In this document: positions 2,254 through 8,244 of the stretch, in pieces
Position numbering within the stretch: the stretch's first letter is position 1
Layout: each line of letters starts with the position of its first letter
Assembly (NCBI GenBank): GCA_012520995.1
Contig: JAAYNI010000031.1
Location: 1-35,865 of the forward strand
From: Candidatus Rifleibacteriota bacterium
GTDB lineage: Bacteria > Muiribacteriota > Ozemobacteria > Ozemobacterales > Ozemobacteraceae
Direction: 5' to 3'
DNA length: 35,865 bases
Made by a program: the position numbers and the translations under genes
The notes under the pieces: generated by a model
The model's input: the letters and a program-made list of their open reading frames with translations, nothing else
What the model was told of the DNA's origin: nothing
The model's database searches: none

Positions 2254-3638
2254 ACCGAGTATTTTCGCTTGGAAAACTTGCTGCTTTTAAGCTGTTTTTT
2301 GTTGTTTTTTTTCTTCTTGTTTGCCAGTCTTCTTATTTATATGCCAAAAACAAGAAAGCAGAGCCTATTTTTAAAATAAAGTTGGGCGATAAACATGACA
2401 AGATAAAAATAGTTCTTCCTGATGGCGGGCGCGTTCTGGATGCTTCAGGAAAGCGGGTTCAAGGTTTTCGCAAGAGAGGAGTCTTTGAGCGAAATCTGAA
2501 GAATCACAGAGGAAGACAAAGAACTCCTTTGAATTTTATTTCTAATAATGGTCTAGTTGAATTTAACGGTAAGACCTATAGAGGTTCTTTGACAGCTCAC
2601 TTTAAAAAAGACCATGTTGTTATTGTGAATAATGTCGCTGTTGAAGATTATTTGCGAGGTGTTGTTGGCGGAGAAATGAGTTCTCTTGCACCTTTGGAAT
2701 CCTTGAAAAGCCAAGCTGTAATAGCCAGAACCTATGCTTTTGCTGGCAGACATAGGCATAAAGACGAAAATGCGGAGCTTTGCGATTCAACTCATTGCCA
2801 AGTTTATTTTGGAATTGAGGCGGAAAGAAAAAGTGTGGATTTGGCTGTGGCTGCTACACGTTCTATTACAATGTTATATGATGGCAATCATGCGGAAACT
2901 CTTTACCATTCTACTTGCGGCGGGGAAACTTCAGATTCTTCAAGTGTTTTTGGCGGCACATTCAAGCCTTGGCTTCGAAGAGTCCAATGCTCTTTTTGTG
3001 AAAATGCGCCTAACTACCGGTGGAGCAAAGTTATTTCGCTTGATATGATGAGAAAAGTTTTGACAAACGAAAAAATCAATTTTGATGCAGTGACGGACAT
3101 AGAGATTGTTTCTCCATCGTACATGGATATAGTCGAAAAGATTGTGTTTAAAACGCCGACTTCTAATCATGAGATAAAGGGCTCGCGTTTTCGCTCTCTT
3201 TTCAAGTTGCCCAGCATGACGTTTGTAATAGCTGATAAAGATCGAAGAAGACAGATGCTGGCTGATTCTTTGTCCGATATGGAATCCTCTGAAGCGTGGC
3301 GTGTCAATTTGCAAAGAAACACGCTTTTGAGCAGACAGCTGTTTGTTCAGAGTGCAGAAGGCTTGCATAGAGCTTCAGAACCATTGGGAGGCTGGGGCGT
3401 TCTAAGCGTGCAAAAAATACTTAAAACTTCTCCAAAACCTCAACTTCAGGATTCTTTCAAAAGTTCTGTTATGAGCCAGTCATCCTTGGATAAAATTTCA
3501 CTTTTCGGGAGAGGATATGGCCATCAGGTCGGTCTTTGTCAGTCAGGAGCTATTGAGCTAGGCAAAAGAGGCTGGAATTATCGTCAAATTCTTTCTTACT
3601 ATTATTCAGATGTTTCTTTGGCAAGTCTTGCCTATTAG
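2250..3638 (+). CDS. SpoIID/LytB-domain secreted protein
   Basis: A predicted periplasmic peptidoglycan-acting protein. A signal peptide or anchor occupies about residues 9-32 (hydrophobic run ending YLYA). The SpoIID domain follows, with the VVGGEM block whose glutamate (about E142) aligns with the catalytic Glu of SpoIID lytic transglycosylase. It then has LKSQAVIARTYA, cysteines C178 and C183 before QVYFG, the HSTCGGET block and the terminal GRGYGHQVGLCQSGA block. The family cuts glycan strands lacking stem peptides in endospore formers and acts as an amidase enhancer (LytB) elsewhere. The start is TTG at 2250, overlapping the queH stop (TTGA), with GGAGG at 2235-2239 ten bases ahead. Residues about 325-415 contain an insert between conserved blocks. 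No sporulation genes are nearby, so a general cell-wall role is more likely. Confidence 0.85.
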   Translation: MNRVFSLGKLAAFKLFFVVFFLLVCQSSYLYAKNKKAEPIFKIKLGDKHDKIKIVLPDGGRVLDASGKRVQGFRKRGVFERNLKNHRGRQRTPLNFISNNGLVEFNGKTYRGSLTAHFKKDHVVIVNNVAVEDYLRGVVGGEMSSLAPLESLKSQAVIARTYAFAGRHRHKDENAELCDSTHCQVYFGIEAERKSVDLAVAATRSITMLYDGNHAETLYHSTCGGETSDSSSVFGGTFKPWLRRVQCSFCENAPNYRWSKVISLDMMRKVLTNEKINFDAVTDIEIVSPSYMDIVEKIVFKTPTSNHEIKGSRFRSLFKLPSMTFVIADKDRRRQMLADSLSDMESSEAWRVNLQRNTLLSRQLFVQSAEGLHRASEPLGGWGVLSVQKILKTSPKPQLQDSFKSSVMSQSSLDKISLFGRGYGHQVGLCQSGAIELGKRGWNYRQILSYYYSDVSLASLAY

Positions 3639-3681
3639 TGCAAATAATTAATATAATTAGTACAGAAGTTTATTTCTTAGT

Positions 3682-3708
3682 TAACTATATCTGAACATCT
3701 GCCGATAA
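3682..3708 (+). promoter_or_regulatory. Sigma-28 (FliA/SigD)-type promoter of pilM operon
   Basis: A TAA-starting -35 box (TAACTATA, 3682-3689) is separated by 11 bases from a perfect -10 octamer GCCGATAA (3701-3708). This is the geometry of the sigma-28 consensus TAAAGTTT-N11-GCCGATAA. A matching element stands before pilQ at 6763-6789 with identical spacing. The expected transcript start is near 3716, about 60 bases before the pilM ATG. The -35 agrees at only about half its positions; the -10 agrees fully. Confidence 0.7.
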
Positions 3709-3735
3709 GTTGGAAAAGTCGCAATATTCTATACA

Positions 3736-3754
3736 CTTGAAGCTGCGCTTCAGG
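3736..3754 (+). promoter_or_regulatory. Small hairpin in pilM 5' leader
   Basis: TGAAGC (3738-3743) and GCTTCA (3747-3752) form a 6-bp stem around a TGC triloop, extendable by two pairs. It lies between the inferred transcript start and the pilM ribosome-binding site (TGGAGGAAGG, 3764-3773). A function in translation or mRNA stability is possible but unproven. Confidence 0.4.
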
Positions 3755-3776
3755 TAATTTCTTTGGAGGAAGGCTT

Positions 3777-4874
3777 ATGAGTTTTATTGGTTCTGACAAT
3801 ACGGCCTTGGGGATAGATATAGGCTCCAACAGCGTCAAGATTGTTCAGATAAAAAAAGCGGGAATGGGCAGGGAGCTGGAAAAATTCGCCATGGCTCCTC
3901 TGCCTCCTAACGTATTCGGTCCAGGTGGCGAAATGACCGATGTTTCTTCGGTTTCGGCCATAATCAAGGATCTTTTAAAGGCACATAAGTTCCAGAAGAG
4001 CAACGTCTTCGCGAGTATATCCAGCCAGAATGTCATCATGAGATTCCTTAAAATTCCGCCTATGGAAGAAAGCGAAATAGCAAGCACTCTTGAGTTCCAG
4101 TCCAGCAGTTATCTTCCTTACGAATTGGATCAGTGCAGCATGGCTCACCAAGTTCTTGCTCATGTTGATGGCGGCGGTGACGGCGGAGCTGGAGAACTTC
4201 TTGTTCTTATGGTAGCTGTTAAGAAGCTTATAGTCGAGTCTTATACTGCAGCTCTGAAAGGGGCAGGTGTTGCTCCCCGAGTCATGGAAGTTGACACCAC
4301 TGCTTTGCTAAATGCTGTGGAAGCTGCATCTGGCGGTTTCGGCGGCGATGGCGGTGGCGGAGAGGTTGTAGCTGTGATTGACGTAGGCGCTTCTACCAGC
4401 AGCATATCTGTGCTTATAGGCGGGGTTTTGCACTTTACCCGTAATATTTTGGTCGCAGGCAACAGCATTACAGACAAGATTGCTGAAAATATGCAGGTTC
4501 CATTTGAGCAAGCTGAAGAAATGAAAGTACATGAAGGCTCTATAGATCTTTATGGTTCTGAAAGCCCTGACAGCATTCCCGGATTGGTTCGTATGGTTCT
4601 TGATGACTTGGCAATGGAACTTAGACGTTCTTTCGACTTCTTTAAAGCTCAGACTCGCGAACCTCAAATCGACAGAATAATATTTACCGGCGGAACCGGT
4701 AAAATGCAGAACTTTTCTGGCTTCCTTTCTAACGAGCTCTCAGTTTCAGCAATGGAATTTAATCCGATAGATATTCTTTCGGTAACAGCTCCAGACGGTG
4801 AGTCTTTCCCATCCGACGTGCTTCAGTACTCTGTTGCGATCGGACTTGCTCTTGGAGGTTTGGAGGATAAATAA
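3777..4874 (+). CDS. pilM: Type IV pilus assembly ATPase-fold protein PilM
   Basis: An actin-like cytoplasmic protein that binds ATP and the N-terminal tail of PilN, docking the inner-membrane pilus alignment complex. The 365 residues show the actin-fold motifs: phosphate-1 loop IDIGSNSVK (about 13-21), phosphate-2 loop IDVGAS (201-206) and adenosine motif FTGGTGK (303-309). Two glycine-rich insertions stand out, DGGGDGGAG (131-139) and GGFGGDGGGG (186-195), the second immediately before the phosphate-2 strand. The ATG at 3777 follows a strong ribosome-binding site (GGAGGAAGG). It is the first gene of pilM-N-O-P, transcribed from the sigma-28-like promoter at 3682-3708. Confidence 0.93.
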   Translation: MSFIGSDNTALGIDIGSNSVKIVQIKKAGMGRELEKFAMAPLPPNVFGPGGEMTDVSSVSAIIKDLLKAHKFQKSNVFASISSQNVIMRFLKIPPMEESEIASTLEFQSSSYLPYELDQCSMAHQVLAHVDGGGDGGAGELLVLMVAVKKLIVESYTAALKGAGVAPRVMEVDTTALLNAVEAASGGFGGDGGGGEVVAVIDVGASTSSISVLIGGVLHFTRNILVAGNSITDKIAENMQVPFEQAEEMKVHEGSIDLYGSESPDSIPGLVRMVLDDLAMELRRSFDFFKAQTREPQIDRIIFTGGTGKMQNFSGFLSNELSVSAMEFNPIDILSVTAPDGESFPSDVLQYSVAIGLALGGLEDK

Positions 4875-5513
4875 ATGATTAAGATTAACCTACTTACCAA
4901 AAAAGCTCGTAAGCCTATACCCTTGCAAGCTATCCTCTCTGTCGGCATAGTTATTTTGGGAGCTGCTGCTGCTATTTTCGCTTTCATATATGCTAAGGGC
5001 TATTTCGAGCACTATAATGATGATGAAAAAGCCCATCTTAAGACTCTCAAAACTGAATATGCCGGATTGAAAAGATACACTGATGATAAGAGAAAGCTTG
5101 AGAGTACTATCAGAGGCCTAGAAAATGAGATTAGAGATCAAGATGCTGGTGCTGACCCCAGCGGTAAAGCTTGGACTCACGTTTTGTTCGGTCTCTCTCA
5201 GAAGGTTCCCGAAAAGACAGTTTGGCTCCAAACCTTGAGGGTTGATGCTGACAAGCGTATACAAATGTCTGCTATAGCATGCAGTGAGGCTGAATCCTCT
5301 GGCTCTTCAAACAGAAATGCCAGTACAAAGATGACCTCAGGTATCCAAGAATTTCTATTCGCTTTGAATGGAGTTCCCGGGGATAAGAGTGAAACAGGGA
5401 AAAGTTCTCCTAGACAGTTTTCTGCGATTAACTTGCAAAGCGCTTCTCAGATTGAGTTTAAAAACAAAAAAGCTTGGCGTTTTGACTTGAATTGCAAAAT
5501 GAACGAGCAATAA
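4875..5513 (+). CDS. pilN: Type IV pilus inner-membrane protein PilN
   Basis: A bitopic protein whose short cytoplasmic tail binds PilM and whose periplasmic coiled coil and ferredoxin-like domain pairs with PilO. The N-terminus MIKINLLTKKARKPIP matches the conserved IN-L PilM-binding tail (INLLP in well-studied PilN). One membrane segment lies at about residues 18-42, followed by a charged coiled coil (about 50-95) and a periplasmic domain. The ATG directly abuts the pilM stop. The periplasmic part contains a Ser/Asn-rich stretch (residues about 136-150) that looks like a flexible insertion. Overall similarity is by architecture, motif and synteny. Confidence 0.88.
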   Translation: MIKINLLTKKARKPIPLQAILSVGIVILGAAAAIFAFIYAKGYFEHYNDDEKAHLKTLKTEYAGLKRYTDDKRKLESTIRGLENEIRDQDAGADPSGKAWTHVLFGLSQKVPEKTVWLQTLRVDADKRIQMSAIACSEAESSGSSNRNASTKMTSGIQEFLFALNGVPGDKSETGKSSPRQFSAINLQSASQIEFKNKKAWRFDLNCKMNEQ

Positions 5514-6079
5514 GAAAGGAAACCGCCATGTTTATAATTATAGCCTTAGTTATTGTGCTAATGTTCTTTGGCGTATCAGGCGTGCTGGTTCATCAGAAGC
5601 TATATGAACCGGCAAAGAACGAGAAGACTAAGCTTGAAGGCGAGATAAATGTTGAGAAACAAAATATAACAGTAGCTAAAAAAGCCAGAGATGAATTGCC
5701 TAATCTCGAAGCCAGAATTGATGCCTTGCGAGAAGAGCTTGAAAAGAAAAAAAGGCCGACTGTACAAGTCGAAATGGTAATTCCGAAGGTTTTAGCCTCT
5801 ATTGAAGCTATTGCTAAGATGTTTGATGTTGAGTTTAAGGATATAAGAATTGCTCCCATAATGAGAGAAGACAGCTGGAGCGAGTTTCCTGTTGAAATAG
5901 TGATTAACGGTCAATTCAAAAACATTTTCAACTTTCTGTACATAATGGAACAACGCGGTCTGGTAACAATGTCTAGCGGTTCAATCAATATAAGCCGAGC
6001 TGGCGGTCCCAAAGATGCCAAGGCTGATGATAGTCCATTCCTCAATGTTAACATTACCGCTAAAATAGTAGTTAGATGA
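5492..6079 (+). CDS. pilO: Type IV pilus inner-membrane protein PilO
   Basis: The partner of PilN in the alignment complex: one N-terminal membrane segment (FIIIALVIVLMFFGVSGVLV), a periplasmic coiled coil (about residues 40-90) and a C-terminal ferredoxin-like domain. Two starts are possible. ATG 5492 overlaps pilN by 22 bases and supplies a positively charged cytoplasmic tail (RAIRKE) before the membrane helix, as PilO topology requires, but has no ribosome-binding site. ATG 5528 has AGAAAGGA 8-9 bases upstream but leaves no charged tail. I list the longer form; the true start is undecided. Assignment rests on topology and on position between PilN and PilP. Confidence 0.85.
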   Translation: MQNERAIRKETAMFIIIALVIVLMFFGVSGVLVHQKLYEPAKNEKTKLEGEINVEKQNITVAKKARDELPNLEARIDALREELEKKKRPTVQVEMVIPKVLASIEAIAKMFDVEFKDIRIAPIMREDSWSEFPVEIVINGQFKNIFNFLYIMEQRGLVTMSSGSINISRAGGPKDAKADDSPFLNVNITAKIVVR

Positions 6080-6090
6080 GGAGGATAAAT

Positions 6091-6654
6091 ATGATTAAGC
6101 CCAGATTCGGAAAAGTGTTTCTAGCAGGGATTCTATTCTCACTCTTAATGCTATATGCAATGCCTGCAGCCTATGCTCAGATGTCAGAGATTGAGGATGA
6201 GACTCTCAAGAAAAAGTTGGCTGACTGGACTAACGATAGGTTAGACAGAGAAGAACAACTTGCCAAAGAAATTCAATCTCATCTTAATGCCAGTTCCAAC
6301 TCAAACTATAGGACTCAGCTGGATATGTTAAAGGATCCATTTAAGGAGCTTATTCAGGACAGACCTGTTACTAGAACCTTGCCTCCTAAAACAGTTTCCG
6401 TAAAGACGATGGCTCCCAAGCGTGAACAGGTGCCTCCTTTACAGATGACGGTTCAAGGCATAGTAGGCAATGATCAAAAAAGACTTGCAGTAGTAAAGTT
6501 TGAGGGAAAAGAATTTGTAATTTCACAGGGACAACCTGTAGAAGGCAAGTTCAGAGTAGTAGATATTTTCCCTGACAGAGTTGTAGTAACTTCTATTAGA
6601 GATAGCAGTCGCTCGACATTCAGACTGGAAAAAGAAAATCCGAACGTGCGCTGA
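6091..6654 (+). CDS. pilP: PilP-like periplasmic pilus protein
   Basis: Predicted to link the PilNO inner-membrane complex to the PilQ secretin. A Sec signal peptide (hydrophobic run ending AAYA before Gln) is followed by a helical, charged region, a proline-rich linker (about residues 95-120) and a C-terminal beta domain (TVQGIVG...VKFEGKEFVISQGQPV...VVDIFPDRVVV). That last domain resembles the HR domain of PilP/GspC. Classical PilP is a lipoprotein; no lipobox cysteine is seen here, so it is probably soluble or retained by its signal anchor. ATG 6091 is chosen because AGGAGGA (6079-6085) precedes it; an in-frame ATG at 6076 overlaps the pilO stop. The gene is last in the operon, before a strong terminator. 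Confidence 0.82.
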   Translation: MIKPRFGKVFLAGILFSLLMLYAMPAAYAQMSEIEDETLKKKLADWTNDRLDREEQLAKEIQSHLNASSNSNYRTQLDMLKDPFKELIQDRPVTRTLPPKTVSVKTMAPKREQVPPLQMTVQGIVGNDQKRLAVVKFEGKEFVISQGQPVEGKFRVVDIFPDRVVVTSIRDSSRSTFRLEKENPNVR

Positions 6655-6696
6655 CGCGACTTAGCGTATCGTTCTAATAAGCCTTAATCCAATTGT

Positions 6697-6729
6697 AAAG
6701 CGGAGAACTCAGGTTCTCCGCTTTTTTTT
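6697..6729 (+). terminator. Intrinsic terminator after pilP
   Basis: AAAGCGGAGAAC (6697-6708) and GTTCTCCGCTTT (6713-6724) form a perfect 12-bp stem with a TCAG loop, followed by an unbroken T-run to 6729. It separates pilMNOP transcription from pilQ, which then has its own promoter. Confidence 0.92.
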
Positions 6730-6762
6730 GCAAAAAAAATTAAGAAAAAATAAATTATTAGT

Positions 6763-6789
6763 TAAGAAAGAATAAAACAATGCCGATAG
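6763..6789 (+). promoter_or_regulatory. Sigma-28 (FliA/SigD)-type promoter of pilQ
   Basis: TAAGAAAG (6763-6770), 11 bases, then GCCGATAG (6782-6789). Spacing is identical to the element before pilM, and both begin within the longer shared string TTAGTTAA, 23 bases from TGCCGATA (6758/6781 here, 3677/3700 there). The -10 matches the sigma-28 consensus at 7 of 8 positions. The predicted transcript starts near 6797, about 65 bases before the pilQ ATG. Confidence 0.68.
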
Positions 6790-6861: not shown

Positions 6862-8244
6862 ATGATGTTTATTTACAGAGACGGAAGGCGAAAACTTCCG
6901 GTAGTAACGGCCCTCTTGCTTGTCGCCGCCTTTCTGCCTGCGATGCTCTGGGCTCAAAGTCAAGAGAATATCTCTCTTAACTTTAAGGACACTGACATTA
7001 GACAGGTCATAGGCGTTATTGCTGAACAGTCAGGAACCAACATTATCGCTGAAAAGAGCGTCAGAGGCAACGTGACTGTAAGCCTTAAGGACGTTTATTA
7101 TGAAGAGGCGATGAACCTTATTGCTAAGACAAACGGATTTGCCGTAAGAAGAATTGGCAATACTTGGATTTTGGCAACAGAAAAGAACTTGGTTGACGCC
7201 TTTGAAAAAGGTTTGAGCATGACAAAACGTTTGCAGTATGCCAAACCTTCAGATGTCAGCAAGATTATAACCGCGACTATTAAAAAAGATGTAAACGTTG
7301 CTGTTGATGACCGCATTAACGGAGTTGTAATATCAGGCGGTAAAGATATTCTTGCTGAAGTTGAAAAGCTGATTGAAACTTTGGACGTTCCGGTTCACCA
7401 GGTTATGATCGAAGCAAAAATCGTTAAGGTTGAAACCAATGCTACCAAAAGACTTGGAGTTAACTGGAAAGCCGGTGTCACAGCTCCTGGTGAAGGCACA
7501 TTTGACCTCTTGTCAGGCACAGAGTTTTTCGCTAAAAATCCTAACTCCCAGCTTTATGATCCTGCTGCATCAGGCGTTGGAAAAATATTCGGATTGGGTG
7601 ACTTCTATAGAGCTCCTCTTAAATATAGTGCTACTATTAACGCTTTGGAAAGTCGCAGTGAGAGCAAGACACTCAGCAATCCCAAAATCTCAGCTATCAA
7701 CGGTGAAGAAGCTTATATTAACGTGGGTGACGTTATTACCTACGGTGGAACAGCTGACCAGCCGCCCAAAGAAAAAGATACTGGTGTTAAACTTAAAGTT
7801 CGCCCTATGATCAACGATGACGGCTATGTGACCGTTTACGCTGAGCCTGAGGTTTCAACTTCCAGAACTGACGGCAGCTATGACTATCCAATTATCAGTA
7901 CTAGCGCAGCTAAAACATCTGTCAGAGTTAAAGACGGCGAAGAGATATTGATCGGCGGAATGATTCAAGACAATGAAAGCACTTCTTCCATGAAGATCCC
8001 TCTTCTTGGCGATATCCCAATCATCAAGTCTCTCTTCAGAAACACTGATAGAAGAACCAATTCGCAAGAACTTATATTCCTCTTGGTTCCTCATATCATA
8101 GCTCAGTCGCTTGAGCCTGTTTCTACCGGATTTGCCGATATGGGTGGTCCCTTGCAGGCTCCTATGTCCAGCTACCAGCCTTCAATGATGCCGATGGGCA
8201 GCATTGACGACTCATTTGACAATGCCTTTGACACTTCCTTCTGA
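6862..8244 (+). CDS. pilQ: Type IV pilus secretin PilQ (short form)
   Basis: The outer-membrane ring through which the pilus passes. The signal peptide ends at LWA (about residue 31). An STN/N0-like domain follows (about 36-105: LNFKDTDIRQVIGVIAEQSGTN). Next is an N1/KH-like domain (about 115-180, ending IETLDVP, the usual lead into the secretin core) and then the secretin beta domain with VMIEAKIVKV, SNPKISAINGEEAYINVG and VKDGEEILIGGMI. The tail (about 430-460) is rich in Met, Pro and Ser. At 460 residues it is far shorter than proteobacterial PilQ (about 700) and lacks the AMIN domains. GGAGG at 6847-6851 precedes the ATG; a second ATG at 6865 is also possible. It is transcribed separately from pilMNOP. 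Confidence 0.93.
   Translation: MMFIYRDGRRKLPVVTALLLVAAFLPAMLWAQSQENISLNFKDTDIRQVIGVIAEQSGTNIIAEKSVRGNVTVSLKDVYYEEAMNLIAKTNGFAVRRIGNTWILATEKNLVDAFEKGLSMTKRLQYAKPSDVSKIITATIKKDVNVAVDDRINGVVISGGKDILAEVEKLIETLDVPVHQVMIEAKIVKVETNATKRLGVNWKAGVTAPGEGTFDLLSGTEFFAKNPNSQLYDPAASGVGKIFGLGDFYRAPLKYSATINALESRSESKTLSNPKISAINGEEAYINVGDVITYGGTADQPPKEKDTGVKLKVRPMINDDGYVTVYAEPEVSTSRTDGSYDYPIISTSAAKTSVRVKDGEEILIGGMIQDNESTSSMKIPLLGDIPIIKSLFRNTDRRTNSQELIFLLVPHIIAQSLEPVSTGFADMGGPLQAPMSSYQPSMMPMGSIDDSFDNAFDTSF

Follow-up and report, generated by a model that had tools for sequence, protein, structure and literature searches.

Flagellar sigma factors already have some bacterial precedents as regulators of pili; here we describe a probable case in a further lineage. 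In Rubrobacter, a WhiG-(c-di-GMP)-RsiG system controls type IV pili, and several separate type IV pilus units lie behind a −35 element TAAA and a −10 element GCCGATAA, with transcript starts mapped (PMC8325347). In the part of the same paper that cites Kimura 2019, the zoospore pili and the flagella of Actinoplanes missouriensis are both described as transcribed by WhiG-like sigma factors (PMC8325347). FliA of Bdellovibrio drives the Tad (type IVb) pilus operon as well as flagellin genes, as monitored with reporters in E. coli, and the type IVa pilA gene is treated as not FliA-regulated (PMC5430801).

The window, that is the whole stretch of 35,865 nucleotides analyzed here (contig JAAYNI010000031.1 of the Candidatus Rifleibacteriota bacterium assembly GCA_012520995.1), carries a set of pil genes on the forward strand. 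We located pilM at 3777..4874 (PilM_2, 164.8 bits), pilN at 4875..5513 (PilN, 24.2 bits for a cut-off of 22.8), pilO at 5529..6079 (PilO, 36.8 bits; ATG at 5529 in an open reading frame listed from 5492) and the pilQ secretin gene at 6862..8244 (ATG at 6862; Secretin, 136.7 bits). A pilP-like gene with a weak T2SSC match below cut-off lies between pilO and pilQ (6076..6654, the first start of its open reading frame being at 6076). The preliminary description had held that a terminator splits the pilus genes into two transcription units, and a strong intrinsic terminator of 12 pairs followed by a T run does part pilP from the site preceding pilQ (6697..6724, forward strand); pilQ therefore probably requires a promoter of its own.

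Ahead of both units, TTAGTTAA (starting at 3677 and 6758) is followed by TGCCGATA (starting at 3700 and 6781) at a distance of exactly 23 bases, as originally noted, and the pattern TAA-N16-GCCGATA occurs twice in the window, both times on the forward strand (3682-3707 and 6763-6788), versus 0.03 occurrences expected from shuffles. We delimited two candidate sigma-28-type promoters on this strand, one for pilM at 3681..3708 (−35 TTAA(CTAT) at 3681-3688, −10 GCCGATAA at 3701-3708) and one for pilQ at 6762..6789 (−35 TTAA(GAAA) at 6762-6769, −10 GCCGATAG at 6782-6789). The −10 octamers stand 76 (pilM) and 80 (pilQ) bases before the ATG, in agreement with the distance of about 80 bases first reported. 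Both sites have TAA with an N11 spacer, as first described, and −10 elements that match GCCGATAA at 8/8 positions at 3701 (pilM) and 7/8 at 6782 (pilQ); the −35 octamers, TAACTATA (pilM) and TAAGAAAG (pilQ), match the enteric consensus TAAAGTTT at only 4/8 and 3/8 positions, respectively. Because of these poor −35 octamers, a search with the full sigma-28 consensus allowing up to 3 mismatches recovered neither the pilM nor the pilQ site.

A sigma-70-like pair, TTGCCT-N18-TATAAT, is also found upstream of pilM (3628-3657), and none was detected before pilQ. Given that dual promoters are common, the sigma-28 promoters could be real but minor, with pilM transcribed mainly from this upstream pair and sigma-28 adding transcription in motile cells. 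This interpretation is a variant of the best explanation and compatible with it, but sigma-70-like pairs occur at the level of shuffled sequences (8 found versus 8.6) and the conserved element is the GYCGATA site, so we give it a modest chance. A sigma-54 promoter was also considered: RpoN is present, yet neither the pilM nor the pilQ intergenic region has a −24/−12-like match.

We examined how the predicted sigma-28-type sites are conserved among relatives. PilM is present in 36 of the 37 genomes searched, the source genome included, and the DNA upstream of pilM was taken from 31 relatives. Using the pattern T-H-A-N17-[GA][CT]CGAT[AG] located 20-170 bases ahead of the start of the PilM match, a pilM site was found in 20/20 same-family genomes with pilM versus 0.06 expected from shuffles, a figure that gauges conservation and not independent events because the pattern was derived from the same genomes in which it was counted and these genomes share ancestry. 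The PilM proteins of same-family relatives are 44-48% identical to that of the window. In the aligned pilM sites, strong constraint is restricted to the −35 and −10 columns, which are near-invariant, and the sites of relatives read TYAA-n-(A/T)3 with N12 spacing. Outside the family, only two genomes (L079 and L080) have a clear pilM site. Many relatives (L055-L074) carry a second conserved stretch, approximately AACTGA(C/A), just 3′ of the pilM −10 element, which is not seen in the window. The pilQ site was found in two other genera only, g6 with a single member carrying it (L065) and g11 with four (L061, L071, L072 and L073). Matches to GTCGATA before pilQ in many relatives were rejected as apparent V-V-D codons within the putative pilP coding sequence. 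Joint control of pilM and pilQ from a promoter each, as proposed at first, would be peculiar to the source genome and a small number of genera; no separate pilQ site was recognized in other relatives.

Searching the source genome (2.84 Mb, 96% complete) for TAA-N16-GCCGATA, as the preliminary description had suggested, gave a count hardly higher than that of a reversed control (15 versus 12), but the placement of the hits was non-random: 7/15 fall in non-coding DNA, 20-160 bases ahead of a gene and in the right direction, whereas such promoter positions make up 2.8% of the sequence (binomial P ~7e-8). The sites are concentrated ahead of genes and not spread at random. We also ran a matrix built only from 22 pilM sites of relatives on 0.87 Mb (31%) of the source genome. 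The pilM and pilQ sites of the window, at 19.5 bits each, rank 2nd and 3rd in this sample. The matrix found a candidate flagellin promoter, TAAAGTTT-N11-GTCGATAA, with a perfect −35 octamer, as well as sites ahead of flgK (17.8 bits), flaG (17.0), fliK (13.7, heading fliK-flgD-flgE), flgI (13.0), flgB (13.0), flgM (12.4) and a small FlhB-C-terminal-like protein. Other pilus genes were among the hits beside the flagellar ones, with sigma-28-like sites ahead of a prepilin gene behind pilT, of a PilB ATPase gene followed by a second pilM (L163:16572, contig C92) and of a PilM/PilN fusion gene (L167:13505, contig C8); the latter two suggest that more pilus-like systems may belong to the same regulon. 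Prepilin-like N-terminal methylation motifs number 57 in the 2.84 Mb genome (loci L124-L153), which seems unusually many. On the minus strand of C8, tandem sigma-28-like sites (L202:3686 and 3752) precede the gene for a 356-aa outer-membrane-like protein.

With 300 column-permuted matrices as the control, sites of at least 16 bits ahead of genes numbered 6 versus 0.05. Some stretches had been picked for holding hits, and the enrichment test was redone on stretches picked otherwise; there, the counts at the same threshold were 2 versus 0.06 (2/3 sites being in promoter positions) and 2 versus 0.03 (0/300 permuted matrices per set). In these unpicked stretches the enrichment persists at 13 bits or more (at most 4/300 permuted matrices) and, below 13 bits, is weak in the larger set, so the flgM site and the other low-scoring sites are no more than suggestive, and we do not lean on weak sites. 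A chance match of a short motif without function would account for the nearly equal counts of the exact pattern in the genome and its reversed control. It is contradicted, however, by the 20/20 conservation among relatives whose PilM is 44-48% identical, by the placement of sites ahead of genes and by the matrix enrichment, and we consider it very improbable. That a matrix trained on pilM sites retrieves the window sites together with flagellar promoters indicates that a single predicted promoter type serves pilM, pilQ and the flagellar genes.

Sites were also found ahead of several genes for secreted or TPR proteins, and several hits precede genes for envelope or secreted proteins without a clear role in motility. 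The latter hits, along with the sigma-70-like pair at 3628-3657, are what one would expect if the sites bound another conserved regulator of pilus and envelope genes while pilM and pilQ were transcribed from housekeeping promoters. Yet pilQ has no sigma-70-like pair, the sites consist of two half-sites with fixed −35/−10 spacing that are enriched in the sense direction ahead of genes, the flagellin and flgK genes carry the same sites, and these fit the published flagellar-sigma consensus of −35 TAAA and −10 GCCGATAA (PMC8325347), all of which makes a regulator other than a flagellar sigma factor highly unlikely.

The extent of the putative sigma-28 regulon differs between genomes. The site ahead of the prepilin gene is private to the source genome, being missing in relatives whose pilT and pilin genes stand in the same order, and a shared motif was mostly not found at the best-scoring flagellin genes of relatives, most of those examined having no good site according to the pilM matrix. 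With the pilin site absent and flagellin sites mostly lacking in relatives, pilM is the conserved core of the predicted regulon and the remainder is variable. The flagellins of relatives (L168-L197) are very long, often in frames of 740-900 aa, with several per genome, mostly without a recognizable sigma-28 site.

A profile search yielded nine sigma-70-region-2 matches in the source genome, which contains one FliA/WhiG (sigma-28) gene (L160:11882-12727, contig 92), a FliA/SigD-like sigma gene such as the proposed promoters call for. Its product scores above cut-off with the profiles of both the FliA/WhiG family (TIGR02479, 284.7 bits, cut-off 189.6) and WhiG (NF004935, 357.8 bits, cut-off 343). 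The best-matching solved structures are entries 6pfv and 6pfj, which carry the label RNA polymerase sigma factor and are known as Streptomyces WhiG; E. coli FliA comes next. Sigma regions 2.4 and 4.2, which read DNA, align with close likeness to the solved relatives, E. coli FliA included. The gene stands in the order cheC-cheD-small membrane protein-FliA/WhiG sigma (L160:10247-12727), which is also that of cheC-cheD-sigD in Bacillus subtilis. Several RpoD-like sigma factors are also encoded in the genome, one of which (L023:826-2178) has a long cysteine-rich N-terminal extension. The lack of flagellar genes pointed out earlier is true of the window but only local, because FlhA and flagellar operons (export and hook genes) are present elsewhere in the genome, and the sigma factor is therefore not detached from flagella. 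The FlgM anti-sigma-28 profile has two matches, of 35.6 bits (C61:20392-20541) and 47.6 bits (C69:86265-86384) for a cut-off of 25, and the two proteins differ from each other. Two FlgM-type proteins are also found in many relatives.

We conclude that the pilM and pilQ sites are very probably promoters for the only FliA/WhiG (sigma-28) factor of the genome, shared with flagellar genes; the sigma gene, the conservation of the pilM site and the sites at flagellar genes support the original reading that an alternative sigma factor linked to flagella drives the pilus units. The sites, their conservation, the sigma factor, the FlgM-type proteins and the predicted promoter type common to flagellar genes are all found in the sequence itself. 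RNA polymerase with the FliA/WhiG sigma factor would read both window sites, and the same sigma factor would transcribe flagellin, flgK, flaG, flgI, fliK-flgD-flgE and flgB, with FlgM-type anti-sigma factors holding it back. The terminator-split pilMNOP (alignment complex) and pilQ (secretin) would be turned on together and would belong to one regulatory class with the flagellum. Binding of the sigma factor to these sites in the cell, control by FlgM, the timing by flagellar assembly and the biological outcome are what we infer. Two motility organelles, the pilus and the flagellum, would probably share one switch. Lower-scoring sites are also present at flgB, flgI and fliK; they make it less than certain that the genes form a simple late class of the enteric type, and argue for a hierarchy partly different from that of the FlgM-controlled late flagellar class. 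More tentatively, and with considerable doubt on our part, the pilus alignment complex and the secretin may be genuine sigma-28/FlgM regulon members in the family, with pilus assembly timed by completion of the flagellum; if true, this timing would be a checkpoint linking the two organelles.

Our observations point to a single sigma factor as the control of both the swimming machinery and the surface pili, the link at pilM being kept across the whole family, and named promoters are now at hand for testing the coupling between pilus and flagellum. In Synechocystis and Nostoc, SigF, a group 3 sigma factor, controls pilA and type IV pili, to our knowledge from promoters of another type and in the absence of flagella. 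As in Rubrobacter, predicted promoters for a sigma factor of the flagellar clade precede separate type IV pilus units, and, as in Bdellovibrio, a sigma factor of the FliA family would drive both pilus and flagellin genes. Unlike Rubrobacter, in which the anti-sigma factor is RsiG, the source genome has FlgM, and flagellar genes share the promoter; a search of stretches making up 31% of the genome gave no match to the RsiG motif E(X)3S(X)2R(X)3Q(X)3D. Whereas Actinoplanes missouriensis is a sporangium-forming actinomycete with several FliA-family sigma factors, a single such factor is present here, in a different lineage. The pili also differ from the Tad/Flp pili of Bdellovibrio, as the genes described here make up a type IVa-like pilMNOPQ set. 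Considered with Rubrobacter, Actinoplanes and Bdellovibrio, these findings suggest that flagellar-type sigma factors control pili repeatedly.
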